From assembly GCA_040757115.1 (NCBI GenBank), contig JBFLYA010000111.1, forward strand, positions 1 through 12,722: a DNA stretch of 12,722 nt, given 5' to 3'. How positions within the stretch are numbered: the first letter of the stretch is position 1; every line of letters begins with the position of its first letter. Below are positions 1-12,722 of this stretch, one piece after another. A model generated the notes under the pieces. That model did not search any database and was not told the DNA's origin. It saw nothing but the letters and a program-made list of their open reading frames with translations. Made by a program: the position numbers and the translations under genes. The stretch is from a bacterium. GTDB lineage: Bacteria; UBA9089; CG2-30-40-21; SBAY01.

Positions 1-307
1 ATATTTAAAAAATTCACTTGTATCCGAACATACTATTTTTGTGCCTTTTTAGGGATATAAGTCAAGAAAAATATTTTTAAAAAAACTTAATTTTTTACTT
101 GACATTTCACCATAAGACTTTGTGCCCTGTAGGGGCATGAGCGTTCTCCTGAAAATAGGCTGAAGACTGAAGGCTGAAGGCTGAAGATTTTTTATCCTAT
201 GTCCTTCAGCCTTCAGCCTATAGCCTATTTTCATCGCTCTGTCCTCCACAGGTTAATATTCATCCCCCAAAATGCCTGACGGATTACAAATCCAAAATTC
301 TTCATTC
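1..307. other. Intergenic stretch downstream of tolC
   Basis: No gene is supported here. The first 110 bases are A/T runs with a TTGACA at 99-104 but no matching -10 hexamer 16-18 bp further on. A small hairpin TGCCC-TGTAG-GGGCA lies at 123-137, followed by the long CTGAAG-word palindrome at 151-232. Genes for a membrane fusion protein or an RND/ABC pump, which commonly follow tolC in such operons, are absent from these bases, so tolC is either the last gene of its operon or its partners lie elsewhere. The open frame across 49-249 on the minus strand is made of the repeat and is not a gene. Confidence 0.6.
151..232. repeat. Palindrome built from the word CTGAAG
   Basis: The outer arms GAAAATAGGCT (151-161) and AGCCTATTTTC (222-232) pair perfectly. 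Inside them AGGCTGAAGGCTGAAG (171-186) pairs with its complement at 204-219. The left arm contains four CTGAAG words, each separated by a base or two. The element lies about 75 bp beyond the tolC stop and could fold as a long hairpin in the tolC transcript, but no U-run typical of an intrinsic terminator follows it on that strand. Confidence 0.8.
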
Positions 308-1588
308 TTAGTTTCTTCCAATTGCCTTTTGTAATCTTGCCCAGGCTAAATTGTAATCATACAGTGCCTGGTAATAATTAGTCTTTGCTTGCGTTAGTAA
401 GGTTTGAGCATCTAAGACATCTGTGGTCGTCGCCATTCCTTCTTTGTACATCTCTTCAGTAATACGCAGATTTTCTTCTGCCTGTCCGATAGACTTCCGG
501 GCAACTCCGATATTCTTTTCTGCCTCTTCTAAACTAAGGCAGGTCTGTCTAACCTCCAGTAAGATTCTATCTTTTAGTAAAAGTAACTGCTCCTCTACAC
601 CTGCCATTTCAGCCTCAGCCTGTTTAACCCTCGAATCTCTTGCCTTCCAATCCCAGAGGTTAAAATTTAAACAAATCCCTGCCATCCATGTTTTTTCCCA
701 TTCATCAATTGGTGTCTTTTGTCCCTTTTGATAGTCATAATTTCCTATTAGATTAACTGATGGATAATAGTCGCTTCTGGCTATCTTCACTTTTTGCTTC
801 AGAATCTCAATGTTAGCCTTTAATTGCTTTAATTCCGGACGCATCTCTTGAGCTTCCTTGAGACATTCATTCAGGTTTATAATCTGTGGCCTAAGCTCCA
901 GGATGTCAATAACTTCAACTGGAGTGTTCTGGTCCTGAGCCAGTACCTGGTTAAATGAAACTTTAGCCAGATTAACCCTATTTTCTGCCTGAACCAGATT
1001 TTGCTGGACATTAGCTAACTGCACCTCTGTCTTCAAGACATCTACTTTAGCCACCATGCCAGCATCATAGAAGTTGGTAACTACTTTCAGGTGAGATTCT
1101 ACTTGTTTAACTGTCTCCTGAGCGATTTGCTGAAATTTTAATGCCTTTAAGATACCCAAATAAGCACTTTTTACTTCTAATATTAATTCGTTTTTTACCT
1201 TTTTATATTCATATTGAGTTGATTCATAGTTATCTTTAGCAAGTTCATAGTTAGAAGAGATTTTGCCGCCGGTAAACAAGGGTTGCTGAATTACACCTTT
1301 AGCCTCATAAATTTCATCATCACTCATAGCCATTGATAGACCCTGAAAATCTACCGTGGTAGCTTCATTTAATCTTGTATAACTTGACTCTAATTTTAGT
1401 GTTGGATAAAAGCCTGTTTTAACCTCCAAGATACCTTCTTTTGATAGAATTACCTTTTTTGAGGCGGCACGCAGACTATGATTATTACTGATAGCCAACT
1501 CAATGCTTCTCTCCAAATTTAGTGGCTCTGACCAGGCTTCAGAAACTACACAAACAACTATAACAAACATAACTCCAAAAATTCTCAT
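308..1588 (-). CDS. tolC: TolC-family outer-membrane efflux channel
   Basis: Predicted outer-membrane channel that would connect an inner-membrane pump (RND, MFS or ABC type) and a periplasmic adaptor to the outside. At 426 residues it is normal length for the OEP family. An N-terminal signal peptide of about 20 residues (hydrophobic GVMFVIVVCVV, likely cleavage after EAWS) precedes two OEP repeats, roughly 25-210 and 225-420, rich in heptad-like A, L, Q and E helices. The second repeat ends with the typical pattern AQTLLTQAKTNYYQALYDYN. I chose the ATG at 1588 rather than an in-frame ATG 24 bases upstream. It overlaps the TetR relic stop as ATGA, has a GGGGG/AGGG ribosome site 10 bases upstream, and puts the signal peptide at the true N-terminus. 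The family assignment is firm; the substrate is unknown because no pump gene is adjacent. Confidence 0.93.
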   Translation of the reverse strand: MRIFGVMFVIVVCVVSEAWSEPLNLERSIELAISNNHSLRAASKKVILSKEGILEVKTGFYPTLKLESSYTRLNEATTVDFQGLSMAMSDDEIYEAKGVIQQPLFTGGKISSNYELAKDNYESTQYEYKKVKNELILEVKSAYLGILKALKFQQIAQETVKQVESHLKVVTNFYDAGMVAKVDVLKTEVQLANVQQNLVQAENRVNLAKVSFNQVLAQDQNTPVEVIDILELRPQIINLNECLKEAQEMRPELKQLKANIEILKQKVKIARSDYYPSVNLIGNYDYQKGQKTPIDEWEKTWMAGICLNFNLWDWKARDSRVKQAEAEMAGVEEQLLLLKDRILLEVRQTCLSLEEAEKNIGVARKSIGQAEENLRITEEMYKEGMATTTDVLDAQTLLTQAKTNYYQALYDYNLAWARLQKAIGRN

Positions 1589-1834
1589 TTTTTTACTACC
1601 CCCTTTAACCATATTTCTAAAATAGTATCCAACTCATTAGTGAGTGGATACTTCTCGTCGTTTATCAACCATTTGTAGATTATCGCATTAGATAGTCCAA
1701 TCAAGGCAATCTCATCTACATCTGCTTTATAGTATCCATCCCTTGAAAAAAACAGTCATAGCTGATTGTAGTATTTGTTCATTCTTCTCCTGCCTTTTTG
1801 ATTCCCTTTTTGCGGCAGATATTTGATGTTTCAT
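1585..1834 (-). pseudogene. TetR/AcrR-family regulator relic with internal deletion
   Basis: Reading the minus strand from ATG 1834 (ribosome site AAAGGG just upstream) gives about 30 residues typical of a TetR N-terminus, including KRQEKNEQILQSAMTVFF, then a frame change. A second frame supplies a TetR-like C-terminal ligand domain, LFFSRDGYYKADVDEIA and then GLSNAIIYKWL, ending in TGA at 1585-1587 inside the tolC start. An intact family member is about 190-200 residues; roughly 110, including nearly all of the DNA-binding helix-turn-helix, are missing. The junction is a 15-base stretch (1741-1755, CCTTGAAAAAAACAG on the plus strand) that is coding in both frames: MTVFFK in one, LFFSR in the other. 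Deletion between two copies of this short sequence is a natural explanation (inference). The surviving product cannot bind DNA. Confidence 0.8.
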
Positions 1835-1858
1835 AAGTTATCCCTTTGCACAAAGAAT

Positions 1859-1872
1859 ACGGACTTGTCCGT
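1859..1872. promoter_or_regulatory. Probable TetR-type operator
   Basis: ACGGAC-TT-GTCCGT is a perfect 6+6 dyad with a two-base centre. It lies 10 bp downstream of the -10 hexamer of the minus-strand promoter, covering roughly +3 to +17, and 25 bp before the regulator's start codon. That is where self-repressing TetR proteins usually bind. The cognate regulator next to it is broken, so the site is probably unoccupied unless a paralogue binds it. Confidence 0.65.
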
Positions 1873-1881
1873 TCTATTTTA

Positions 1882-1928
1882 ACAATACCATAATTATCTC
1901 AAATCGTCAATAAAAATTTTGACCTGTG
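1882..1928 (-). promoter_or_regulatory. Sigma70 promoter for the tetR relic-tolC operon
   Basis: On the minus strand TTGACG (1905-1910), a 17-bp spacer and TATTGT (1882-1887) form a good sigma70 promoter; the start of transcription would be near 1875. Upstream, CACAGGT (1922-1928) is followed by an 11-bp A/T-rich run leading into the -35. The same arrangement occurs at the fpg and SNF2 promoters. Confidence 0.7.
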
Positions 1929-1950
1929 CAATTAGAAATAAAAGGATAAT

Positions 1951-2035
1951 ATTTTTGGGACGCTGTCCCCAAGCCCCTGCTGGGGGTTTTGGGGAACGCG
2001 TTCCCCCAATGGGGTCTGGGACAAAACCCCAGAAC
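1951..2035. repeat. GC-rich multi-hairpin repeat element
   Basis: About 80 bp of G- and C-rich sequence in an otherwise AT-rich spacer. It contains GGGAC-GCT-GTCCC (1957-1969), CCCCAA (1967-1972) pairing with TTGGGG (1989-1994) around an inner CCCC/GGGG stem, a 16-bp perfect palindrome GGGGAACGCGTTCCCC (1991-2006), and TCTGGG (2015-2020) pairing with CCCAGA (2028-2033). Its composition differs sharply from its surroundings, which suggests a dispersed element. It occurs once in this window and codes for nothing I recognise. Confidence 0.7.
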
Positions 2036-2057
2036 ATCTTCCTTAATTTTCTACCTG

Positions 2058-2104
2058 CACAGGTGGAAATTTTTGTTGACTTTTGAATGATTTTGGCGTA
2101 TCAT
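2058..2104 (+). promoter_or_regulatory. Sigma70 promoter upstream of fpg
   Basis: TTGACT (2076-2081), a 17-bp spacer and TATCAT (2099-2104) make a likely promoter; transcription would start near 2112 and run through a leader of about 178 bases to fpg. CACAGGT at 2058-2064, part of the dyad ACCTG-CA-CAGGT, sits 11 bp before the -35. Confidence 0.6.
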
Positions 2105-2108
2105 AAAT

Positions 2109-2160
2109 TGTAACCGTTCAGGATATAGCCACAGAGCCACAGAGAACACAGAGGGAATAT
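2109..2160 (+). repeat. Dispersed repeat, copy 1 (CGTTCAGG / CACAGAG type)
   Basis: TGTAACCGTTCAGG followed by iterated CCACAGAG, AACACAGAG words and a GGGAATAT tail. A second, diverged copy lies at 8138-8195 in the same order: TGTAAGCGTTCAGG, GCAGAG, CGTAGAG, AAACAGAG, then GGAAAATAT. It begins directly after the fpg promoter -10 region, so it forms the start of the fpg leader. Confidence 0.65.
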
Positions 2161-2178
2161 ATAATCACGAATGAATCC

Positions 2179-2202
2179 CGTTAGATGTTCTACTATCTAA
2201 CG
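2179..2202. repeat. Small stem-loop in the fpg leader
   Basis: CGTTAGAT (2179-2186) and ATCTAACG (2195-2202) are perfect 8-bp arms around an 8-base loop. A further short dyad, CCAAATC (2211-2217) with GATTTGG (2235-2241), follows. They lie between promoter and start codon of fpg. The first looks like a mobile hairpin repeat rather than a regulatory structure, but with one copy here this is a guess. Confidence 0.5.
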
Positions 2203-2289
2203 AGGTGAACCCAAATCTCCCTGAACAACAAAAAGATTTGGTAATACAATTTATGAAAGTGCAGCGGTTACAAAGAGGATAACTTAAAG

Positions 2290-3138
2290 ATGCCAGAATT
2301 ACCTGAGGTAGAAACTATTGTTCGTGGATTACAACAACAGATTATTGGCCAAAAAATTATTAAGGTAAGTGTCCATCTGCCTAAAATTATCAAGCAGGAA
2401 ACAAAGGAGTTTGCCTCACAACTAAAGGATACACAGATACAGGGCATCAGTCGTCGGGGCAAGATGATTATCATTACTCTTTCAAATAACCTCAGTCTGG
2501 TTATTCATCTTAAACTTAGTGGTCAAATTGTTTATACTTCACCCCGGTCACCAATGGCAAATCATACCCACCTTGTTATTGAACTATCTGGTGGTAATCA
2601 ATTACGATATATAGACCTGCGTCAGTTTGGTTATGTTATCTTAACCAAAACATCGATATTATCCCAGCTTACGCAATTGGCGGGACTTGGTGATGAGCCG
2701 CTGAAGATTTCATTATCCGATTTCAAAAGATTAATTTCTACGAAAAAGGGGCGGATAAAGTCGTTATTACTTAATCAATCATTTCTGGCTGGAATTGGCA
2801 ATATTTATGCAGATGAATCCTTACATCTGGCACGGATTCATCCCCTTCAATTAGCCTCAACATTGACTCAATCGCAAATAAAAATACTTTATCAATCTAT
2901 CAGGAATGTCTTAACCGCGGCGATTCTGTATCGAGGTTCAAGTATCAGCAACTATGTTGATTCAAGTGGTCAGGAAGGCGGTTATCAGAGATTCCATCGG
3001 GTTTATCAACGGGAAGGGCAAATGTGCGTTACCTGTCAGGAAAAGATATCGCGAATAAAAATAGGCGGTCGCTCAAGCTATTTTTGCCCGCATTGCCAAA
3101 AACTGAACTTTCGTATGAATATGGATAAACACAGATGA
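2290..3138 (+). CDS. mutM: Formamidopyrimidine-DNA glycosylase (Fpg/MutM)
   Basis: Base-excision repair enzyme that removes 8-oxoguanine and ring-opened purines and nicks the strand by beta/delta elimination. The 282 residues begin MPELPEVETIVRGL, giving the catalytic Pro2 and Glu3 after Met removal. The conserved lysine is K58 (RRGK). The helix-two-turn-helix is FLAGIGNIYADES (165-177), and the zinc finger is C246-x2-C249-x16-C266-x2-C269 with the conserved Arg at 261. Two strand-probing positions differ from the usual pattern: HLKLSG replaces the HLGMSG-type loop (Leu for the intercalating Met) and DLRQFG replaces DPRRFG. The last residues (about NMDKHR) are encoded by a tandem decamer repeat, which also supplies the stop codon. 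AGAGGA lies 10 bases before the ATG. Promoter at 2076-2104; no operon partner. Confidence 0.95.
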   Translation: MPELPEVETIVRGLQQQIIGQKIIKVSVHLPKIIKQETKEFASQLKDTQIQGISRRGKMIIITLSNNLSLVIHLKLSGQIVYTSPRSPMANHTHLVIELSGGNQLRYIDLRQFGYVILTKTSILSQLTQLAGLGDEPLKISLSDFKRLISTKKGRIKSLLLNQSFLAGIGNIYADESLHLARIHPLQLASTLTQSQIKILYQSIRNVLTAAILYRGSSISNYVDSSGQEGGYQRFHRVYQREGQMCVTCQEKISRIKIGGRSSYFCPHCQKLNFRMNMDKHR

Positions 3139-3178
3139 ATTCTATGCACAAATAATCGAATTTTGGGATAAAATTTTG

Positions 3179-3207
3179 TTGACATGAGTTAAAATTTGTG
3201 ATAAAAT
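3179..3207 (+). promoter_or_regulatory. Promoter of tRNA-Thr
   Basis: TTGACA (3179-3184), a 17-bp spacer and TAAAAT (3202-3207) give a near-consensus sigma70 promoter with a predicted start near 3214, about 13 bases before the mature tRNA. The -35 is preceded by AAAATTTTG as at the other promoters in the window, but there is no CACAGGT word here. Confidence 0.8.
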
Positions 3208-3226
3208 GTCCTCAGATTCACTTAAA

Positions 3227-3301
3227 GCCGGTGTAGCTCAGGGGCAGAGCGGCTGATTCGTAATCAGTAGGTCGGAGGTTCAATTCCTCTCGCCGGCTCC
3301 A
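3227..3301 (+). tRNA. tRNA-Thr (anticodon CGT)
   Basis: A full cloverleaf can be drawn by eye. The acceptor stem GCCGGTG pairs with CGCCGGC (one G-T pair), the D arm is GCTC/GAGC with a short 7-base loop, and the anticodon stem GCTGA/TCAGT surrounds TTCGTAA with anticodon CGT at 3259-3261. The T arm is GGAGG-TTCAATT-CCTCT. CCA is encoded at 3299-3301 after discriminator T. It decodes ACG threonine codons. Confidence 0.96.
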
Positions 3302-3305
3302 AAGT

Positions 3306-3377
3306 AAATGGGAAGCGGGAAGTAGGAAAAAAATAAAACCATAACCAAAATACTTCTCCCTTTTCCATTTCCCATTT
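3306..3377. repeat. Palindrome built from GGGAAG words
   Basis: AAATGGGAA (3306-3314) pairs perfectly with TTCCCATTT (3369-3377). The interior continues the theme imperfectly (GCGGGAAGTAGGAA against CTTCTCCCTTTTCC). A T-run follows at 3375-3380, so it might end the tRNA transcript, but the loop is large and the core weak. Confidence 0.6.
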
Positions 3378-3446
3378 TTTCATTTGTTAGACTTCACCTG
3401 AGTAAATAATTACTTACTTTTTAATTAATTAACCGGGAGGGCTATT

Positions 3447-5165
3447 TTGGTCACAAGATCATACCGTGAGAGAATCCTTGTCTTTATTATTATTATTTCC
3501 TTGATTTCTTTTTTTCTGATTATCCGATTATTTTATATCCAGCTTGTCCAATCCAGGAAAATGAGTGGATTGGCAAAAGGTGAACATACTAAAATCTTAC
3601 AAATCGAATTAGCCAGAGGAACTATATTTGATTGCAACCTGCAAGAATTAGCCATGAGTATTGAGGTAGATTCAATCTATAGTCAACCAAACCGAATCGA
3701 AAGACCATACAAAACCGCAATTCAACTATCAAATATCTTAGGAATGAACCCAACCACTCTCTATAAAAAATTAACTCATAATTCATCTTTTGTCTGGTTA
3801 AAAAGGAAGGTAGAGAAAAAACAATCACAAAAGATAAGAGAATTAAATATTAAGGGAATAGATTTCTTGAAAGAGTATAAACGCTTTTATCCTAAAAATC
3901 ATTTAGGGGCTCATCTCATAGGTTTTGTTGGATTAGATAATGAAGGATTAGAAGGAATTGAATCAATCTATGATAAATATTTAAAAGCAGGAATTAATCG
4001 TCTGGTAGTTCTGAAAGATGGAGAGGGTAGAACTATTTTATGCCCACAAAATAATCCACTTGTAAAAAAGGCATCAAATGGAAATGATATTATTCTTACC
4101 ATAGATGAAATTATTCAACATCACGCTGAAGCAGAGCTGAAAAATATCTGTGAGGAGCAGAAGGCTAAATCTGGTTCAATAATTGTTATGGTCCCAAAGA
4201 CTGGAGAGATATTAGCCTGGGCTATTTATCCTTTTTATAATCCTAATTGTTTTTCTCAATTTCCATCTCATCAATACAGGAATACAATTGTTACGGATAT
4301 TTTTGAGCCTGGTTCTACTTTCAAGATATTTTCTGCCATTGCTTTACTCAAAGAAGGATTAATTCCATCTGAAAAAACATATTTTTGCCCGGGACATATC
4401 CAGATAGGGAATAAAACTATTCACTGCCATCATCCACATGGAACTCAAAATCTGGAAGGGATTATCGCCAATTCCTGTAATGTCGGAATGGCACAATGTA
4501 TTCACCGGCTAAGTGACAGAAAATTTTATTCACATATTTTAGAATTCGGTTTTAATGAGTCGACTAAAATTGGACTTTCTGGAGAAGAAAAAGGGTTATT
4601 ACCTAAACCTAAAGATTGGTCCAGACTGTCTAAATATACAATAGCTATTGGACAGGGAATCTCAGTTACTCCATTGCAATTAATTATGGCCGTCGGGGCG
4701 ATTGCTAATAATGGCGTTTTAATGAAACCAATCGTTATAAAGGCAATTAAAACTCCGCAAGGAAAAATAATCAAGGAATTTAAACCCACGCCGGTAAGAC
4801 AGGTTGTTCCTTTAGAATTAATTCCACAAATAAATAAGATGTTGACAAAGGTTGTAACTGATGGCACCGGGGAATCAGCCCAAATTAATGGCTATGAGAT
4901 TGCCGGGAAAACCGCCACGGCTCAGAAGGTCGATGCAAATGGCAAGTATAGTCCTGATAAATTTATTGCCTCTTTTATTGGTTACCTGCCCGCAGATGAC
5001 CCCAAAGTAATTATTTTGGTCATTGTAGATGAACCAAAAGGCACATATTGGGGAGGAACAATTGCCGCACCCACATTTAAAAAAGTGGCAAAAAGAATCA
5101 TATCCTATATGGGAATCCTTCCGACTAAACCATTAGCAGAGGAACAAAGTCAGCACAAAGGATAA
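3447..5165 (+). CDS. ftsI: FtsI-like class B penicillin-binding protein (transpeptidase)
   Basis: Predicted septal peptidoglycan transpeptidase anchored in the inner membrane. A short cytoplasmic start and one transmembrane helix (about 9-34) are followed by the dimerisation domain with its RGTIFD signature (57-62). The transpeptidase domain has the catalytic STFK (290-293), SCN (343-345) and IGQGISVTPLQ (401-411). The third motif reads KTA (488-490, GKTATAQK) instead of the usual KTG. There is no PASTA domain. It starts at TTG: GGGAGG (3435-3440) is six bases upstream, and the first in-frame ATG lies after the membrane helix. A weak promoter (TTGTTA 3384, 17 bp, TAATTA 3407) is possible; read-through from the tRNA promoter is an alternative. 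It stands alone rather than in a division and cell-wall cluster, so a SpoVD/PBP2-like role cannot be excluded. The class is certain, the exact symbol less so. Confidence 0.9.
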   Translation: MVTRSYRERILVFIIIISLISFFLIIRLFYIQLVQSRKMSGLAKGEHTKILQIELARGTIFDCNLQELAMSIEVDSIYSQPNRIERPYKTAIQLSNILGMNPTTLYKKLTHNSSFVWLKRKVEKKQSQKIRELNIKGIDFLKEYKRFYPKNHLGAHLIGFVGLDNEGLEGIESIYDKYLKAGINRLVVLKDGEGRTILCPQNNPLVKKASNGNDIILTIDEIIQHHAEAELKNICEEQKAKSGSIIVMVPKTGEILAWAIYPFYNPNCFSQFPSHQYRNTIVTDIFEPGSTFKIFSAIALLKEGLIPSEKTYFCPGHIQIGNKTIHCHHPHGTQNLEGIIANSCNVGMAQCIHRLSDRKFYSHILEFGFNESTKIGLSGEEKGLLPKPKDWSRLSKYTIAIGQGISVTPLQLIMAVGAIANNGVLMKPIVIKAIKTPQGKIIKEFKPTPVRQVVPLELIPQINKMLTKVVTDGTGESAQINGYEIAGKTATAQKVDANGKYSPDKFIASFIGYLPADDPKVIILVIVDEPKGTYWGGTIAAPTFKKVAKRIISYMGILPTKPLAEEQSQHKG

Positions 5166-5172
5166 TGGCAAT

Positions 5173-5402
5173 TATAGTGGTTATTAGTCAAAACTTTACT
5201 CAGAGTGGATAAGTAAAAATCCCAAATCCCAAGCACCAAATCCCACATACCAAAAAGCGAATTAGAGATTAGTGAATTAGAGATTAGATTTTACTAATTC
5301 GCTAATTCGCTTAATTCACTAATTCACTAAATGGAATTTGAAATTTGGAATTTGGAATTTCAGAGCTATATCTATGTCAAATTTTGACTAATAAGTGCTA
5401 TA
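5173..5402. repeat. Three-layer nested palindrome between convergent genes
   Basis: Outer layer: 21-bp arms 5173-5193 and 5382-5402, matching at 18 positions with a perfect 13-bp core (TTATTAGTCAAAA / TTTTGACTAATAA). Middle layer: AAATCCCAAATCCC-type words (5218-5244) against GGAATTTGGAATTT-type words (5333-5360). Inner layer: GCGAATTAGAGATTAG words (5257-5287) against CTAATTCGCTAATTCGC words (5294-5330). The left arm begins seven bases after the ftsI stop; the right arm covers the stop and last codons of the opposing gene. It could end transcription from both sides, although no classic terminator with a U-run is present. Confidence 0.8.
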
Positions 5403-7646
5403 TCCTGCAAATCTGCGTCCTATTTTAAAAACCAGAATAAAAGATGTCAGGTTAAGGAGACCGGAGATAAAACAACACTGAAATATTCCTAAGATAGGGA
5501 TAAATAAAATCGTAGATAAAAGCCCGCCCAGACAGGCTCCAAATAAATCAAACCCATAAATTAATCCAGCTGTTTTGCCAATTCGCTGGAAGTTTTTAAG
5601 GTAAAGTTTATTAGCTAATGGAAATTCTGCACCAACAAAAATGCCTGTAATAATGGTTAAAATCGGAAACAATATCTCAACCGCCATAAAAATACTTGCC
5701 TGACTATTTAGCCTGGAAAGGAGTAAGAATATTAATGGCAGGAGAAATGAATAAAGGAAGATAGAGAACTCTATTCTGGATAAGATGCGTATTCCCTGCT
5801 TATCATTAATCTTATTTAATATTTGATTCATCCATAAGGTGCCAATGACTAACCCAAACATAAATGAGGCAACGATTATCCCAATGCGATGATAAACATA
5901 GCCATACAAAACCTGAAAACCAAAGATTAATATTATCTCTAAGGATAATCCAGCATAGCCGGTGGTCATAATCGCTATGGGTATGGCAGTAATAGGTCTT
6001 TTTTTACAAATAACTAACTGGCTAATGAATAAGATAATTAGTATGCCCAGTATCCAGTTCAGATTTATTTTTGAAAACCAATTAAAGGTTGTCCCCAGGC
6101 GGGTATCAAACTGTGTTGACCAGAATACCATTTCATAAAAATAACCAATAGGATGAAAATCACTATTCACCAACCCCTTGTAATCCTCAATTACCTTTTT
6201 GACAAAGGTTATTCTATCTTGAAGCAGACGATATGGAAAATAATATTCATCGACATAGGTAGTTTGTATGTTTCTCCCGGTAAATCTTCTGGCTAAAGAT
6301 TGCGTATCATAGGTCAAAACCCCTTTTTGGGGGCTGGCAAAAAAGAGTAATTTTTCCCCGGGAGCAATGGTCACCGAAGGGAATACCGCTTTTAATGTTT
6401 TATAGATACAACCATTAAGGTTCTTTAACTCCTGACTAAAATAATTCTCATTTGAACTTATTTTTATTGAAAAGATACCGTCTGGATTTAAGATATTTTT
6501 TATCTCCTTAAAAAATTCTTTTGTGTAGAATCTATTTAACTGAGCAGTCGCGGGGTCTGGCAGGTTGACAATGATTAAATCAAATCTTTTTGTCGCTCTT
6601 TTAACAAATAATCTGCCATCCATAAGATGGACATTGGACTGCTTAAAACTTTGTAAATCTTCTTTTGGTAGATATTTTTTAGATAGTTCTATGACCATCG
6701 GGTCTAATTCAACATAATCAACTTCGGTCTGCGGGTGCTTAAGAATCTCTGTTAATCCGCCAGCAATACCTCCGCCAATGATAAGTATCTGTTTTGGCTC
6801 AGGATGCATCACCATTGGAAAATGAATAAGTTGTTCTGCAGAAACTTTATCTGGTAGCGAAAATATAGGCAGACCACTTTCATAAAAGGTGTATTGATTT
6901 TCTTCACGACTAATCGCAATATTCCCATAGATAGAGTCCTTAGTTATTATTAAATTATATCCCTGCCATTGAAGTTTTTGAGAGAGTTGTTGTAAAAAGT
7001 TAGGCAGACCAGAGAAGATAGTTAGAGTAACTAAAACTAAAAGGAAAAGACAGATAATGGGGAAACGGCGTAGAATCAAAAATCCACTGAGTAAATTAAG
7101 AATAAAAAGGAAGGAAAACATATCAAAGGAATGAAATAAATAGACCAGAACATAAGTGAAAACAATGCCTCCTAAAATATCACCCAGTCCATCGTAGATA
7201 TACACATAACCTATTTGTGGGGCAACCTCTTTTTTTGATACAGTATAGACTTTACAGCCAAGTGTAAATAAAAAGCCAGTTAAAAGACAAAGAGGCAGGA
7301 GCACAAAGAAACAACTTATCAGCATTGGGAAAAATCCAATCATTACCCCGGGCACAATGCCCAAAATATGCCGAATATCTCTTACCAGGAATATTTCCAG
7401 GGCAATGATTAGAGGAAAGAGTATTTGAAGAATAGCAAAGAGTTGTGCAGATTTTTTTAATCTATCTACCAGGCGACCGATAAGTGAACTGCCAATAGCC
7501 GTCCAGAATAACCAACCGGCTATTGTTATTCCAAATGATAGTTCATTGCCGTAAAATACGACGGCTAACTCCCGCATCAATAGTATCTGAGCCAGCGTAG
7601 AAGTAAAACCTATTAATATTAAGGCGAATATTAAATATTTCTTCAT
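5388..7646 (-). CDS. Membrane protein with spermidine-synthase-like domain
   Basis: A 752-residue fusion of membrane helices with an AdoMet-binding, aminopropyltransferase-like domain. About seven N-terminal helices lie within roughly 3-215. The soluble domain (about 225-500) has the nucleotide-binding glycine loop IIGGGIAGG (near 289-297), VELDP (near 312-316), a DG pair near 343, and NLPDPATAQLNRFYT (from 361). A C-terminal set of helices spans about 530-745. It belongs to the family often labelled fused MFS/spermidine synthase; the substrate is unknown. The catalytic segment reads NLPDP rather than the DSTDP-like motif of true spermidine synthases, so polyamine synthesis should not be assumed. 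I start it at 7646, where GGAGGG lies just before ATAATG. An in-frame ATG at 7685 falls inside a repeat relic and lacks a ribosome site. It has its own promoter (7782-7810) and no operon partner. Confidence 0.85.
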   Translation of the reverse strand: MKKYLIFALILIGFTSTLAQILLMRELAVVFYGNELSFGITIAGWLFWTAIGSSLIGRLVDRLKKSAQLFAILQILFPLIIALEIFLVRDIRHILGIVPGVMIGFFPMLISCFFVLLPLCLLTGFLFTLGCKVYTVSKKEVAPQIGYVYIYDGLGDILGGIVFTYVLVYLFHSFDMFSFLFILNLLSGFLILRRFPIICLFLLVLVTLTIFSGLPNFLQQLSQKLQWQGYNLIITKDSIYGNIAISREENQYTFYESGLPIFSLPDKVSAEQLIHFPMVMHPEPKQILIIGGGIAGGLTEILKHPQTEVDYVELDPMVIELSKKYLPKEDLQSFKQSNVHLMDGRLFVKRATKRFDLIIVNLPDPATAQLNRFYTKEFFKEIKNILNPDGIFSIKISSNENYFSQELKNLNGCIYKTLKAVFPSVTIAPGEKLLFFASPQKGVLTYDTQSLARRFTGRNIQTTYVDEYYFPYRLLQDRITFVKKVIEDYKGLVNSDFHPIGYFYEMVFWSTQFDTRLGTTFNWFSKINLNWILGILIILFISQLVICKKRPITAIPIAIMTTGYAGLSLEIILIFGFQVLYGYVYHRIGIIVASFMFGLVIGTLWMNQILNKINDKQGIRILSRIEFSIFLYSFLLPLIFLLLSRLNSQASIFMAVEILFPILTIITGIFVGAEFPLANKLYLKNFQRIGKTAGLIYGFDLFGACLGGLLSTILFIPILGIFQCCFISGLLNLTSFILVFKIGRRFAGYSTY

Positions 7647-7680
7647 TATCCCTCCAAATTTATTTGGTAACTGGTAAAAT

Positions 7681-7730
7681 GGCAATTGAAAACTGAGCCA
7701 TTTCTGACAATTGAAAATTGACCCATTTTA
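7681..7730 (-). mobile_element. Possible solo end of an IS21-family element
   Basis: Two adjacent 25-bp units (7681-7705 and 7706-7730) match at 20 of 25 positions. On the minus strand each reads GGG/GCTCA-TTTTCAATTG style words (GTCAATTTTCAATTGTC, CTCAGTTTTCAATTGCC). Such repeated TCAnTTTTCAAnTG units resemble the multiple transposase-binding repeats at the ends of IS21-family elements as I remember them. No istA or istB coding sequence is present, so this is at most a relic. It occupies the leader of the spermidine-synthase-like gene. Confidence 0.45.
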
Positions 7731-7743
7731 TTAGAAAAACTGG

Positions 7744-7810
7744 ATTGTTTCACAATACCAGTCTTATTCCTATTATTATCCATTATACTAAAAAATCTCG
7801 GTTTTTGCAA
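7744..7810 (-). promoter_or_regulatory. Promoter of the spermidine-synthase-like gene, with downstream dyad
   Basis: On the minus strand TTGCAA (7805-7810), a 17-bp spacer and TATAAT (7782-7787) form a strong -10 promoter with a start near 7775, giving a leader of about 130 bases. A 5+5 dyad ATTGT-TTC-ACAAT lies at 7744-7756 within the early transcribed region and could be an operator. The CACAGGT word of the other promoters is absent. Confidence 0.7.
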
Positions 7811-7833
7811 CATTATTTAATTGTAAGCCTGTG

Positions 7834-8129
7834 ATTCAGACACTGGACATCAGACACAAGACTATAGACTCTATTTATGCAGGAAATTAGTGACATTTGG
7901 AAAACCATCCTCAAAACTTCACTCCCTGAATTTTTCCTGAGCATTACCTATGTCAGTGACAGTGTCAGTGTCAGTGAAGAAACTCTTTCAACTCATCCAA
8001 CACTTCCAACTCTTTCTACTCTTTCAAGTCTTCCAGCAGAAGTATAGGCAGGTCTCCCAAGCCTTCATTCTTCTGCAATTTCTGCCCGCTTTAGTCTGAG
8101 GTCTGATGTCTATGGTCTACTGTCTGAAT
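7834..8129. repeat. Long inverted-repeat element with internal word repeats
   Basis: ATTCAGACA (7834-7842) and TGTCTGAAT (8121-8129) are perfect end arms. Both arms continue as imperfect strings of CAGACA/ATAGAC-type words on the left (to about 7870) and GTCTGATGTCTATGGTCTAC on the right (from about 8093). Inside are GTCAGTGACAGTGTCAGTGTCAGTG-type iterations (7952-7976) and CAACTCTTTC/CTACTCTTTC-type words (7981-8035). No gene is supported in 7811-8296. A 56-codon open frame at 7877-8047 is mostly these words. Confidence 0.65.
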
Positions 8130-8137
8130 TGCAGAAT

Positions 8138-8195
8138 TGTAAGCGTTCAGGTAATCCTTTACCGCAGAGACGTAGAGAAACAGAGAGGAAAATAT
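8138..8195 (+). repeat. Dispersed repeat, copy 2 (CGTTCAGG / CAGAG type)
   Basis: TGTAAGCGTTCAGG followed by CCGCAGAG, ACGTAGAG, AAACAGAG and GGAAAATAT. It is collinear with the copy at 2109-2160. Here it lies about 50 bp before the SNF2 promoter rather than after it. Confidence 0.6.
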
Positions 8196-8242
8196 CTTTT
8201 TTTCGCGTTTTTCGGTGTTTAAGAAGGATTAAAAACCTATTT

Positions 8243-8290
8243 CACAGGTTGAAAAATTTTGTTGACATAGCCACAAATCTGTAGTATAAT
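8243..8290 (+). promoter_or_regulatory. Perfect-consensus sigma70 promoter of the SNF2 operon
   Basis: TTGACA (8262-8267), a 17-bp spacer and TATAAT (8285-8290) match the consensus exactly; transcription should start near 8297. CACAGGT (8243-8249) sits 12 bp before the -35, separated by TGAAAAATTTTG. It is itself the right half of a short dyad (AACCT 8234-8238 with AGGTT 8246-8250). The promoter should be strong unless repressed. Confidence 0.85.
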
Positions 8291-8296
8291 TATTTT

Positions 8297-8396
8297 CAAT
8301 GTCTCATAAGGAACAAATAAAGGCGATATTGCACGAGCTGTTATAGAAATAACAGATAGAGAATTAAAGTCTTTAAGAGACACTGGGAGGGAAAAA
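8297..8396 (+). other. Structured 5' leader of the SNF2 operon
   Basis: About 100 bases lie between promoter and start codon. CTGTTAT-AGAA-ATAACAG (8338-8355) is a perfect 7-bp hairpin. GTCTT-TAA-GAGAC (8369-8381) is a second hairpin just before the ribosome site GGGAGG (8385-8390). TGTCTC (8300-8305) could instead pair with GAGACA (8377-8382), so two alternative folds exist near the ribosome site. The SNF2 frame is open for 29 codons upstream of the ATG but has no start codon. A 15-codon open frame begins at 8299, right at the predicted transcript start. Confidence 0.45.
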
Positions 8397-10991
8397 ATGA
8401 GTGCAAAAGGATGTAAATTCACCTCCGGAGGTATTATTAGAGATAGGCGGTTAGAGGTTGAAATATACCCACACAAACCACGAATTGAAGCAATAGTTAT
8501 CTCTGATAATCCTCAAAATCCCCCATTAGCATTAAAAATCTGGACTTTAGATGATGAAGGAATTACTGAATTATGTACATGTGCGAAACCTTGTAAATAT
8601 AACGAAGCATTAATTAAACCAGCATTACCTCAACATATCGATGCACAAATGCATCAGGAAATATGTAGATTCAGAAATAACTTTGGTATTCGCAATGATA
8701 AGGTAACAATATCAATGGTAAATGTCCCTTCCCAACCTTTCTTATTTGATTCTCTCGATAATTTTAAACTTAATGGAGCCTGGAAAAATAAATCATTAAT
8801 ACACCAAATTCGTAAAAGGTTTGATGCTATACCTAAAGATGAGGATAATGAAGATGGAATTTTATTATATGAAGAGCTTATTAAGCGGGCTAAACAACAT
8901 ATAACAAAAAAACAATTTACTAAAGCAGAGTATGTCCTTAAAGAGGCAATACGGACTCTTCCTGAATCTCCCCAAGCATATTATGAATTAGGTAAACTAT
9001 ATAAAGTGCAAGAAAGATTAAAAGAGGCAGAAAAAACAGTTAATATTGCTCTATCTTATCTAAGGAAAATAAGTACCACCATAGATCAACCACTTTATAA
9101 CCTACCGTATAAACAAGCAGAAGAGGAACTTATTGCTATAAAAAATCTTAGGGAGAAGAAAAAACAACAAAAAGAGGATAATATATGGAGGCAAATAGAG
9201 AAAAAAGATATAGAGCAGCCCAAAAGCCAGTATCAGCCAAAGGTAATAGTTTCTATTCAATTTGATAATTCTAACCAACAGATACTTACTGCTATTGCTA
9301 ATGAGCAGTTTGATGGACCCAGATTTTTTAATCTTTTAGTTCATGCACAAAGAATATCACTATTTCAGAGCTTTGAACAACTACTTTGTCTTGACTCAGT
9401 AAATATTGAGCATTATCAGTATCAGATTGAGAGTGCCAGAAAAGTACTACGACGATTTGCTGGTAGAGCTATATTAGCAGATGAGGTAGGCTTAGGTAAA
9501 ACTATTGAGGCAGGTTTGGTTTTAAAGGAGTACTTCATTCGTGGATTAGTATCTAAAGTATTAATATTAACTGTGCCATCATTAGTATCTCAATGGCAGG
9601 AGGAGATGGAGACAAAATTTGACCTAAAATTTATCACTACTGATTCAGCAGAATTTGACACTAAGGATACTAATTTCTGGGCAAAGCATGATTTAATCAT
9701 TGCCTCACTTCATACCGCTAAGCGAGAAAACCATCGCCAGGCAATACATCAGCTTGAATATGACCTGTTGATTATTGATGAGGCTCATCACCTAAAATCT
9801 AAATCTACCATTAGTTGGCAATTTGTCAATGATATAAAGAAAAAATTTGTCCTGCTACTTACTGCTACACCTGTCCAGAACAATTTAGAAGAACTTTATA
9901 ATATGATTACTATTCTTAAACCAGGACAATTAAAGACATTAAGTACATTTAAGCGAAATTTTGTCACAAGAGGTAATCCTAAAAAACCCAAAAATAAACA
10001 AAGACTACGAGAACTACTTGCAGAGGTAATGATTCGTAATACACGTGCCCAGGCAGATATTAGGATACCGAAAAGACATGCCAAAACTATTAAAATACAA
10101 CTACAACAACCTGAAATGGATATATACCTCCGTGTATCAGATTTTATAAGAGGTGAATATTGCTCATTAAACCTAAATAATAACGCTTTAAATAAATTTC
10201 TACTTATGATGTTACAGCGTGAGATTGGCAGTAGTGTTATGGCAGTAATACCTACTTTAAAGAAGATGAGTGAAAATCCTAACCTTAATGATACACAGAG
10301 AAAGAGGTTTTCAAAACTCTATAAAGAGGCATATGAAGTAAATGAAAGTACTAAAATAAATGCCTTGAGATATATCTTTAACTCTATAAATGGAGAAAAA
10401 TGCATAATCTTTACTCAATTCTTAGAGACACAAAAACTTATTCATCAATACCTTCATCAGGAAGGAATACCTACATCTATTTTTAATGGTAGAATGTCTT
10501 CAACAGATAAAAACTTAAGTATAAAGGAATTTCAAGACGAAAATCAAGTACTTATCTCCACTGAGGCAGGTGGTGAGGGGAGGAATTTACAATTTTGCCA
10601 TATAATGCTAAACTATGACCTCCCATGGAATCCAATGCGGATAGAACAGCGTGTAGGTAGAATTTGTCGGGTAGGGCAGAAGAAAGAAACATATATCTTT
10701 AACCTATCAAGCGAGAATACTATCGAGTCCTATATCCTGGCTATACTTGATGAGAAAATAAATATGTTTGAATTAGTCCTGGGTGAGATGGATATGATTT
10801 TAGGTAATTTAGATGATGATAAAGATTTTGAAGAAACTGTTATGGATATATGGACTGGAGTTACTTCTAATGATGAGTTAGATAAAAAGATGCAAGAGTT
10901 TGGCAATTTACTACAATCTGCTAAACAAAGTTACTTGAGTACAAAGGAATTAGATGCGGCATTATTTGGTGAGGATTATGAAGTAGAATGA
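8397..10991 (+). CDS. SNF2-family helicase-like ATPase with N-terminal TPR region
   Basis: An 864-residue DNA- or nucleoprotein-translocating ATPase. Residues 1-150 match nothing I know; C60, C62 and C66 are clustered there. Helical TPR-like repeats follow (about 158-226), then a lysine/glutamate-rich linker (250-285) and the two-lobed SNF2 core. Motifs seen: DEVGLGKTIEAG (Walker A, 362-373, K368), DEAH (461-464), LTATP (488-492), STEAGGEGRNLQ (721-732) and the arginine-finger motif RIEQRVGRICRVGQ (748-761). The core most resembles RapA-like bacterial SNF2 proteins. The chain ends about 100 residues after the last motif, without the long C-terminal region many relatives carry; the next gene appears to supply it. 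It starts at ATG 8397, after GGGAGG. Role unknown: RNA polymerase recycling, repair or defence are all possible. Confidence 0.9.
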   Translation: MSAKGCKFTSGGIIRDRRLEVEIYPHKPRIEAIVISDNPQNPPLALKIWTLDDEGITELCTCAKPCKYNEALIKPALPQHIDAQMHQEICRFRNNFGIRNDKVTISMVNVPSQPFLFDSLDNFKLNGAWKNKSLIHQIRKRFDAIPKDEDNEDGILLYEELIKRAKQHITKKQFTKAEYVLKEAIRTLPESPQAYYELGKLYKVQERLKEAEKTVNIALSYLRKISTTIDQPLYNLPYKQAEEELIAIKNLREKKKQQKEDNIWRQIEKKDIEQPKSQYQPKVIVSIQFDNSNQQILTAIANEQFDGPRFFNLLVHAQRISLFQSFEQLLCLDSVNIEHYQYQIESARKVLRRFAGRAILADEVGLGKTIEAGLVLKEYFIRGLVSKVLILTVPSLVSQWQEEMETKFDLKFITTDSAEFDTKDTNFWAKHDLIIASLHTAKRENHRQAIHQLEYDLLIIDEAHHLKSKSTISWQFVNDIKKKFVLLLTATPVQNNLEELYNMITILKPGQLKTLSTFKRNFVTRGNPKKPKNKQRLRELLAEVMIRNTRAQADIRIPKRHAKTIKIQLQQPEMDIYLRVSDFIRGEYCSLNLNNNALNKFLLMMLQREIGSSVMAVIPTLKKMSENPNLNDTQRKRFSKLYKEAYEVNESTKINALRYIFNSINGEKCIIFTQFLETQKLIHQYLHQEGIPTSIFNGRMSSTDKNLSIKEFQDENQVLISTEAGGEGRNLQFCHIMLNYDLPWNPMRIEQRVGRICRVGQKKETYIFNLSSENTIESYILAILDEKINMFELVLGEMDMILGNLDDDKDFEETVMDIWTGVTSNDELDKKMQEFGNLLQSAKQSYLSTKELDAALFGEDYEVE

Positions 10992-11107
10992 AGGCACAGA
11001 TTATACAGATGAAGACAGCCAATTTACAGAAGTCAGATTTATAAGATATTACAGACACATTTGGGTAGTGTATAACAATAGCTATAGATTATGAGGGGGG
11101 TTAAAAA
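10992..11107 (+). other. Gap inside the SNF2 operon
   Basis: The 116 bases between the two genes lack a clear terminator, so co-transcription is likely. An 18-codon open frame starts at 10988, overlapping the SNF2 stop as ATGA, and ends at 11044; it may only couple translation or be chance. A poor promoter match (TTACAG, 16 bp, TATAAC, near 11049-11076) is visible. Ribosome site GAGGGGGG occupies 11093-11100. Confidence 0.4.
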
Positions 11108-12169
11108 ATGCTGCCCTTTGGAAATGATGATTTAAGGGACTTTTGTCAACAAGCATTCTCTTCATTAGATGGATTGGTAGAATCTGAAAATGAGGATATG
11201 CTGGAGGTGGTACTAAGTGATGAATTAGCAACTAATTTTGACAATAGGTCTTATCTTAAGTTTATCTTTGACCGTAAACTATCAACTCAATTCCCAGATG
11301 CAGAGTTTATATCTTATGGACATCCGAATCTTGATATGCTTATCAATTTAGCATCACAAAAAGGCTTAGTAACAAGATGGTATATAAATGGACTAACAAC
11401 TACTACCGGATATCTATTTAAGAAAGTAGCTAACAAGGTAAAATTCTATGATTGTAAGACCAAATACTTATTGGACATACTTGAAAGATTTTCTTATTGC
11501 CTATTTAATTTCAAAATATCATATCTAACAGATGATAAAAAAGAAGAAATAAGAGCAGTTGTGGTAGATAGATTTTCATCCGCAGTAAATAATAAACTAC
11601 TTGATGTATTAAATACACTATCTCTTGAGACAGAATGTAAATTTAGGGGTATGTCTGAGGGTGAAATAAGACCATTACAAGAGGTCTATCAAGCTGCCTG
11701 TGACTATATTAAGAATGATATAGCTTCTACTATTGAGGAGACGAAAAAGGATATTTTAAAAAGGCTATCGAAAGAGATAATACGTGTAGAGAATTATTAT
11801 TTAGAAAATGAAGAAGAGATTAACCAGAAATTAAATAAAGAGGGTTTAAGTAATGAAAGACGCCAAAGACTAAAACAAAAACTTAAAATTAATGAACTTG
11901 AAAAGCAAAGGAAGATTTTAGACTTAGAGGAGAAATACAAACTTAAGGTCAATATTAAATTACTCAATGTAGCATTAATCTATCAACCTAAGATTAAATG
12001 TAAATTAGAGATAATTGGTAAAGGTAATAGATTTTATTTCAATGTCTTCTGGAATCCTATCTTTAAGGATATAGAGCTACCTTTTTGTATGAAGTGTAAA
12101 TCTGGTTCGTATGATATGTGGTTTGATACAGACTTTGGGCTTATATGCCCTAACTGTAAGACAAGGTAG
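11108..12169 (+). CDS. Coiled-coil, zinc-ribbon partner of the SNF2 protein (RapA-C-like)
   Basis: A 353-residue soluble protein of no named family that I recognise with certainty. Residues 46-76 read YLKFIFDRKL...EFISYGHPNLD, like the FDR...GHP segment I know from the region following the helicase core in RapA-like SNF2 proteins. Then comes a mixed region (80-200), a highly charged coiled coil (about 200-282) ending LEEKYKLKVNIKLLNVAL, and a C-terminal zinc ribbon C327-x2-C330-x16-C347-x2-C350. That order matches C-terminal halves of long single-chain SNF2 relatives, so I infer that a helicase has been split into two genes and that the products act together. Start ATG 11108 follows GAGGGGGG by seven bases. 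Base composition matches the helicase gene. The link to RapA-C is by eye and needs profile confirmation. Confidence 0.7.
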   Translation: MLPFGNDDLRDFCQQAFSSLDGLVESENEDMLEVVLSDELATNFDNRSYLKFIFDRKLSTQFPDAEFISYGHPNLDMLINLASQKGLVTRWYINGLTTTTGYLFKKVANKVKFYDCKTKYLLDILERFSYCLFNFKISYLTDDKKEEIRAVVVDRFSSAVNNKLLDVLNTLSLETECKFRGMSEGEIRPLQEVYQAACDYIKNDIASTIEETKKDILKRLSKEIIRVENYYLENEEEINQKLNKEGLSNERRQRLKQKLKINELEKQRKILDLEEKYKLKVNIKLLNVALIYQPKIKCKLEIIGKGNRFYFNVFWNPIFKDIELPFCMKCKSGSYDMWFDTDFGLICPNCKTR

Positions 12170-12238
12170 GGCAACTTGTTATTCATGAATCAGATTTTAT
12201 CTCTTCCATCATTATAATAATTAACAGTAACTATTCAG

Positions 12239-12282
12239 CCACTGATTAACACGGATTAGCACGGATAAATACAGAGGTCAGG
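12239..12282 (+). repeat. Tandem decamer repeat (GATTAACACG type)
   Basis: Three near-identical 10-bp units run GATTAACACG, GATTAGCACG, GATAAATACA (12244-12273). Related units GATAAACACA, GATGA occur at 3124-3138, where they encode the end of Fpg, and a degenerate pair lies near 10997-11014 just after the SNF2 stop. The rest of 12170-12376 holds no supported gene. A dyad TTGTT-A-AACAA is at 12331-12341, and a lone AAGGAG ribosome-like site precedes ATG 12377. Confidence 0.6.
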
Positions 12283-12376
12283 TACGTGTTTAGTGTCTTC
12301 CAAATTGTGTTGATTTGAGACGTAACCCTTTGTTAAACAATAGGATACCGGTGCGAAATATTCCACAAGGAGTTTA

Positions 12377-12722
12377 ATGCAAATATCAAAATGTAAAAAT
12401 CAAAAGGACAAAGCAAAATGCAAAAATATACCCAAATAAATTGAGTTTGCAAATATTTTGCTCTAAAAAGGGAGCAAGGATTCGAGGGGTCAAGGATTCA
12501 AGGGAGGTGAAAAATAAGGTGTTCACTCGCCCCCTGGATCCCTTGACCCCTTGAATCCTTTCAAGAAAGTTTTTGCAAACTTGTTTTCTTTGAGTATACT
12601 TGTAAGGCAATAAAAAAAATCAAATATTAAATATTAAAAATCAAAAATAAGAATAAAAGAATTCCTTAATTTTGATATTTGCTCTTTGATTTTTGATATG
12701 ATATTTGATATGTCATTTTGCA
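12377..12722. repeat. Nested palindromic element at the window edge
   Basis: Core: AAGGATTCGAGGGGTCAAGG (12476-12495) pairs with 12541-12560 at 19 of 20 bases and the arms extend further. Middle layer: AGTTTGCAAA (12444-12453) with TTTGCAAACT (12572-12581). Outer layer: degenerate ATGCAAATATCAAAA words from 12377 against complementary TTTGATATTTG/ATTTTGCA words ending at the last base of the window. The minus-strand open frame across it is repeat-derived. The element may continue beyond the window. Confidence 0.7.

Follow-up and report, generated by a model that had tools for sequence, protein, structure and literature searches.

A two-gene SNF2 system whose second chain probably corresponds to the C-terminal region of RapA

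Several lines of evidence suggest that two consecutive genes in a bacterium of the UBA9089 lineage together encode one RapA-type SNF2 translocase made of two chains, and we regard this as the probable reading. Both genes lie on the forward strand of contig JBFLYA010000111.1 (assembly GCA_040757115.1), of which positions 1 to 12,722 were analysed and are called the window here. The first gene (8397..10991, + strand) encodes an 864-aa motor subunit, assigned from its open reading frame (ORF), Pfam domains and profiles, that consists of tetratricopeptide repeats (TPRs), an SNF2 ATPase core and a short conserved C-terminal tail. The second gene (11108..12169, + strand) encodes a 353-aa YqhG-like protein, hereafter protein 2, which by Pfam, profile and structure comparison is the equivalent of the Spacer and C-terminal domain (CTD) of RapA. 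We consider it very likely that protein 2 is a RapA-type C-terminal region detached from its motor. Homology, conserved pairing, co-retention and correlated divergence of the SNF2 chain and protein 2 support the two-chain proposal.

A first-pass annotation, made from the sequence alone, had described a TPR-SNF2 protein that carries all core motifs and stops soon after motif VI, and the ORF agrees, with about 103 residues remaining past that motif. Pfam places TPR_19 at residues 171-218, SNF2-rel_dom at 343-630 and Helicase_C at 653-760; the TPR region as a whole (residues ~160-220; 8874..9056, + strand) occupies the position of the N-terminal domain of RapA. Within the ATPase core, delimited by Pfam and motifs (residues 337-800; 9405..10796, + strand), we find motifs I (DEVGLGKT, 362-369), Ia (389-400), II (DEAH, 461-464), III (LTATP, 488-492), IV (FTQF, 672-675), V (STEAGGEGRN, 721-730) and VI (QRVGRICRVGQ, 751-761). 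The helical tail that follows (residues 801-864; 10797..10988, + strand) ends in FGEDYE, a terminus conserved among homologues, and is a candidate docking site. The top PDB sequence matches of the chain are RapA (E 5e-43), and when the paired SNF2 proteins are combined into a profile, its alignment to RapA spans residues 115-636 (E 3e-49); the score against the NCBIfam RapA equivalog model is 225 bits, under its cut-off of 576.

Protein 2 begins with a domain (residues 7-84; 11126..11359, + strand) that contains FDR at 54-56 and GHP at 71-73 and shares homology with the domain that follows the helicase in single-chain SNF2 proteins. A long helical hairpin (residues 184-276; 11657..11935, + strand) is inserted between strands of a beta-domain in the AlphaFold model, with helices at 184-242 and 249-276 and a predicted local distance difference test score (pLDDT) of 73-93 by blocks of ten residues, and the protein closes with a C-terminal zinc ribbon recognised from sequence (C327-x2-C330 ... 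C347-x2-C350; 12086..12157, + strand). The first-pass annotation had seen FDR...GHP, a charged coiled coil and the ribbon. The same annotation had noted that longer RapA-like SNF2 proteins carry a comparable region on the same chain and had proposed a search for profile or structural similarity; both were found, to RapA and to single-chain proteins. The model of protein 2, for which the window sequence was combined with 13 homologues (mean pLDDT 72, predicted template modelling score 0.49), gave four Foldseek matches in the PDB with E<0.001, and all four are RapA (8t0l, 6bog, 8spg, 8so8; E 3e-8 to 6e-8, probability 1.00), the fifth-ranked match having an E of 0.66. Residues 6-296 of the model align with RapA 712-968, that is, the Spacer and CTD. 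By hhalign, protein 2 with its nearest homologue matches the post-helicase region of seven single-chain SNF2 proteins at E 6.6e-7, and the broader protein 2 family does so at E 2.7e-8; the best of 100 column shuffles reached 0.043. In one genome (G015) the stretch that matches protein 2 is part of a 1109-aa single-chain SNF2 protein and comes after the helicase domain. Given that the SNF2 profile falls on RapA 115-636 and protein 2 on 712-968, the two chains are collinear with RapA 115-968.

Several results weigh against this reading or narrow it. Global superposition of protein 2 on RapA is poor (TMq 0.27, root-mean-square deviation 13-14 A), so the RapA match depends on local agreement in 3Di states and sequence, and, with a deviation of about 13 A, any placement of its domains relative to one another is tentative. 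The protein 2 profile matches E. coli RapA alone only weakly (E 0.006, best shuffle 0.032), and we rejected this direct match as stand-alone evidence; Bacillota YqhG taken alone could not be linked by profile to either RapA or the single-chain proteins. The AlphaFold model of the SNF2 chain (pLDDT 53) was too poor to use. On the functional side, the RNA polymerase-associated RapA homologue of B. subtilis most often named in the papers that we covered is YwqA and not YqhH (PMC12448304, PMC3797733), though one study lists YqhH (HepA) as well (PMC7385302). That the genes are merely co-transcribed, protein 2 being an independent zinc-ribbon coiled-coil protein whose resemblance to RapA reflects no more than a common arrangement, is nevertheless very unlikely: the low global TM-score and a hairpin that by itself matches many unrelated chains would fit this idea, but RapA is the sole Foldseek match below 0.001, the alignment of residues 6-296 extends beyond the hairpin, the match of the N-terminal domain does not depend on it, and the partner SNF2 is retained even in genomes where the two genes are unlinked. 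VIA matches of the model to many long-helix proteins were dismissed as generic hairpin matches.

The pairing of the two genes is conserved. We surveyed 19 genomes of the same phylum and a wider sample of 386 genomes. A relatives search with protein 2 returned six homologues in addition to the G015 protein. Seven genomes of the phylum carry protein 2 as a gene of its own, always with the SNF2 gene directly upstream (7/7), and SNF2 matches above 500 bits are found in exactly these seven, the next-best SNF2 scoring 119 bits. In the wider sample protein 2 is present in 24/386 genomes and directly follows the SNF2 gene in 19 of the 24. Four of the remaining genomes (G345, G071, G214 and G259) encode, at another place in the genome, a pair-type SNF2 that is 47-50% identical; the fifth (G304) has only a broken protein 2 fragment, and a pair-type SNF2 was not detected in it. 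The same arrangement is seen at 12 of 13 loci from named genomes (Nitrospirota, NPL-UPA2, Hakubella and others), one of the 13 apparently being the contig of G016, and on five of five cyanobacterial plasmids. The adjacency that the first-pass annotation had expected a neighbourhood survey to reveal is thus borne out. Paired genes have a median intergenic gap of 0 base pairs and frequent 4-base-pair overlaps; the 116-base-pair gap in the window is wide by comparison, with no terminator-like site detected between the two genes. Sequence distances of the SNF2 chain and protein 2 correlate across pairs (Spearman 0.81; 0/2000 permutations as high), which would also follow from shared inheritance and serves as supporting evidence only. 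At two Nitrospirota loci (L071:5192-7171 and L081:4592-6607) a gene for a DinG/XPD-type helicase directly follows the pair and overlaps protein 2 by 8 bases; the L071 helicase matches the PADLOC type IV DinG profile at 441 bits and is related to the DinG of type IV CRISPR systems.

Natural fusions, which the same survey was to seek, did not appear: none joining a paired-clade SNF2 to a YqhG-like domain was seen in about 40 loci, and the single-chain relatives sit on a separate branch of the SNF2 tree from the paired proteins. The RapA branch of this tree is very long and its rooting is unsafe. By "split" we therefore mean only that the two parts are encoded apart, with no direction implied between the splitting of one ancestral chain and the later joining of two. 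With respect to the earlier proposal of a split, two-subunit SNF2 machine driven by one strong promoter, the separate genes and their conserved pairing stand, whereas the physical complex and the strength of the promoter are predictions. That the SNF2 chain and protein 2 form an obligate two-subunit complex is, in our judgment, quite likely.

The window pair is a divergent relative of a gene pair already known by name, Bacillus YqhH-YqhG (SNF2 + PF11079), which has the same order and strand and the tight spacing typical of the pair. The Pfam YqhG model (PF11079) covers residues 7-248 of protein 2 (E 2.4e-5) with 23.9 bits, just below the cut-off of 25, and YqhG matches the protein 2 family profile at E 6.6e-7 in a profile-profile comparison; an NCBIfam scan of protein 2 gave no match. 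In the two genomes checked that have a YqhG above the Pfam cut-off, which judging from the family are presumably Bacillota, an SNF2 gene of 581 or 586 aa lies immediately upstream. B. subtilis, used as a control genome, also gives a match to the YqhG model, and one study names its yqhG and yqhH together within a single deleted region (PMC6123443). The two YqhG proteins that we compared differ from protein 2 in that they are without the zinc ribbon and GHP, and their SNF2 partners have only 581-586 aa. The first-pass reading of the window pair as an SNF2 motor and its C-terminal region is supported; that annotation did not recognise its YqhH-YqhG kind. A homologue in G005, 69% identical to protein 2, likewise keeps both FDR and GHP, which are changed in most other members, and for this reason the two proteins form a useful bridge. 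Many relatives of protein 2 carry extra CxxC units. One subfamily (L048, L049, L050, L051, L054 and L057), which contains all four members unlinked to an SNF2 gene, has long C-terminal cysteine arrays, and 10-24 CxxC were counted in L050, L051, L054 and L057. In the cyanobacterial plasmid copies (L066-L070) the WNP...ribbon region is kept and most of the zinc cysteines are gone, and the SNF2 partner consists of the core only (567-569 aa). In a limited search of papers that mention YqhH or YqhG, we found no description of YqhG as a RapA-type domain or as a YqhH subunit. The reading of YqhG-type proteins as detached RapA Spacer/CTD regions, often with zinc ribbons, thus appears to be unreported in that literature.

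E. coli RapA (HepA) and the window system contain equivalents of the same motor core and Spacer/CTD in the same order, in one chain in RapA and in two chains here, with the Spacer/CTD equivalent in its own ORF. Where RapA has a Tudor-like N-terminal domain, the window SNF2 chain has Pfam TPR matches, its first 130 residues being modelled without confidence, and protein 2 has an extra C-terminal zinc ribbon. Homology to RapA leads us to expect that the two-chain form translocates on DNA and that targeting falls to a subunit of its own. We propose that the SNF2 chain would act as an ATP-driven motor on double-stranded DNA, equivalent to RapA 1A/1B/2A/2B, its TPRs taking the place of the Tudor-like domain, and that the YqhG-like chain would contribute the Spacer/CTD equivalent together with the zinc ribbon, whose role we can only infer. 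Protein 2 most likely docks at the end of the motor and would give it target specificity; the FGEDYE tail as the docking point is a guess. The likeliest job of such a machine would be to remove or backtrack stalled or post-termination transcription complexes, or to clear other protein roadblocks from DNA. RapA itself removes or backtracks RNA polymerase (PMC9303389, PMC12448304), and its Spacer residue D744, described as a contact to the zinc-binding domain of the beta' subunit (PMC8501970), falls within the 712-968 stretch aligned with protein 2. We name RNA polymerase as the main target tentatively, at slightly less than even confidence.

A general role in DNA repair or recombination, such as the clearance of forks or roadblocks with no special relation to RNA polymerase, is the alternative that survives best, although we think it unlikely. 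In B. thuringiensis, yqhH is reported to encode an ATPase/helicase and its deletion lowers survival after ultraviolet (UV) irradiation (PMC10054049); in B. subtilis, deletion of yqhH (hepA) reduced survival in methyl methanesulfonate under PcrA depletion (PMC7385302), and the DinG-like partner gene in two Nitrospirota points the same way. Both phenotypes, however, fit the removal of stalled RNA polymerase as well, and the nearest solved structures are RapA.

Less probable still is a role in anti-phage defence, with the pair as a compact module related to the single-chain helicases DrmD (DISARM), BrxHII (BREX) and HmaA (Hma). Past the helicase, these proteins have in common a domain that bears FDR/FDK...GHP-type motifs and then a charged helical stretch, and protein 2 is homologous to their C-terminal regions: positions 700-773 of the PADLOC BrxHII helicase profile match residues 6-82 of protein 2 (E 2.6e-5), and the best PADLOC scores of the SNF2 core are to BrxHI/II and DrmD profiles. 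The patchy occurrence of the pair (24/386 genomes) and the addition of a DinG-like helicase at two loci, the scanned one being akin to the DinG of type IV CRISPR, also speak for a defence role, and such a role is kept alive by the plasmid-borne cyanobacterial copies, two of which lie beside RelE/ParE-type toxin-antitoxin genes. On the other hand, the HmaA/BrxHII/DrmD-type helicases are single chains of about 1100 residues with SNF2 cores on a separate branch; the one scanned ends in NOV_C/DUF3883, and DUF1156 genes lie nearby in most of their plasmid cases. Housekeeping genes surround the chromosomal copies of the pair that we examined, and two viral-contig scans and BFVD yielded no significant homologue. 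We rejected membership in DISARM, since the NCBIfam models for DrmD gave 253 and 251 bits, far short of the cut-offs of 610 and 950, and no drmA, drmB (DUF1998) or methyltransferase gene was met among the window genes. Nor was a nuclease gene found there, in agreement with the first-pass annotation, which had seen no recognisable DISARM or restriction system; the contig ends at 12722. Membership in BREX or Hma was likewise rejected, the window having two separate ORFs and no BREX or Hma partner among its genes.

Upstream of the RapA-like pair lies a predicted sigma-70-type promoter-like site, TTGACA-17 nt-TATAAT (8262..8290, + strand), with a 12/12 consensus match. It is the sole 12/12 match among 22 promoter-like sites, against 22.4 in shuffles, and on sequence grounds it may be active, perhaps strongly. 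A short intergenic tandem array of 9-nt units (AACTCTTTC-like) stands further upstream at 7981-8043, flanked by inverted arms at 7829-7870 and 8093-8134. A short distance downstream of the operon is a palindromic dispersed repeat (12476-12575) with 29-nt arms that are 86% complementary; about 12 more copies, 76-99% identical, occur in the same genome, and the element resembles repetitive extragenic palindromes or miniature inverted-repeat transposable elements (REP/MITE-like). The remaining genes of the window encode a TolC-family protein, fpg, tRNA-Thr, an FtsI/SpoVD-like penicillin-binding protein and a spermidine-synthase-like membrane protein. The last (5388-7685), 765 aa long, has membrane segments on both sides of its spermidine-synthase-like domain (NCBIfam MFS_SpdSyn 66 bits, cut-off 40).

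Taken more broadly, it is fairly likely that SNF2 and YqhG proteins together make up a nucleoprotein remodeller of two subunits that is widespread and stands parallel to RapA. YqhG-type proteins would be its free-standing Spacer/CTD subunits, and TPRs and zinc-ribbon arrays would replace the N-terminal regulatory domain of RapA and set the target. For the uncharacterised Pfam family YqhG this offers a first structural idea and a testable hypothesis, namely that its members are detachable targeting subunits of a RapA-like motor. If this is true, B. subtilis owns a second machine of the RapA type, the motor of which, YqhH/HepA, has in the literature that we covered been studied without its partner, and nature would provide a two-piece system in which the roles of the RapA motor and C-terminal domains can be separated.

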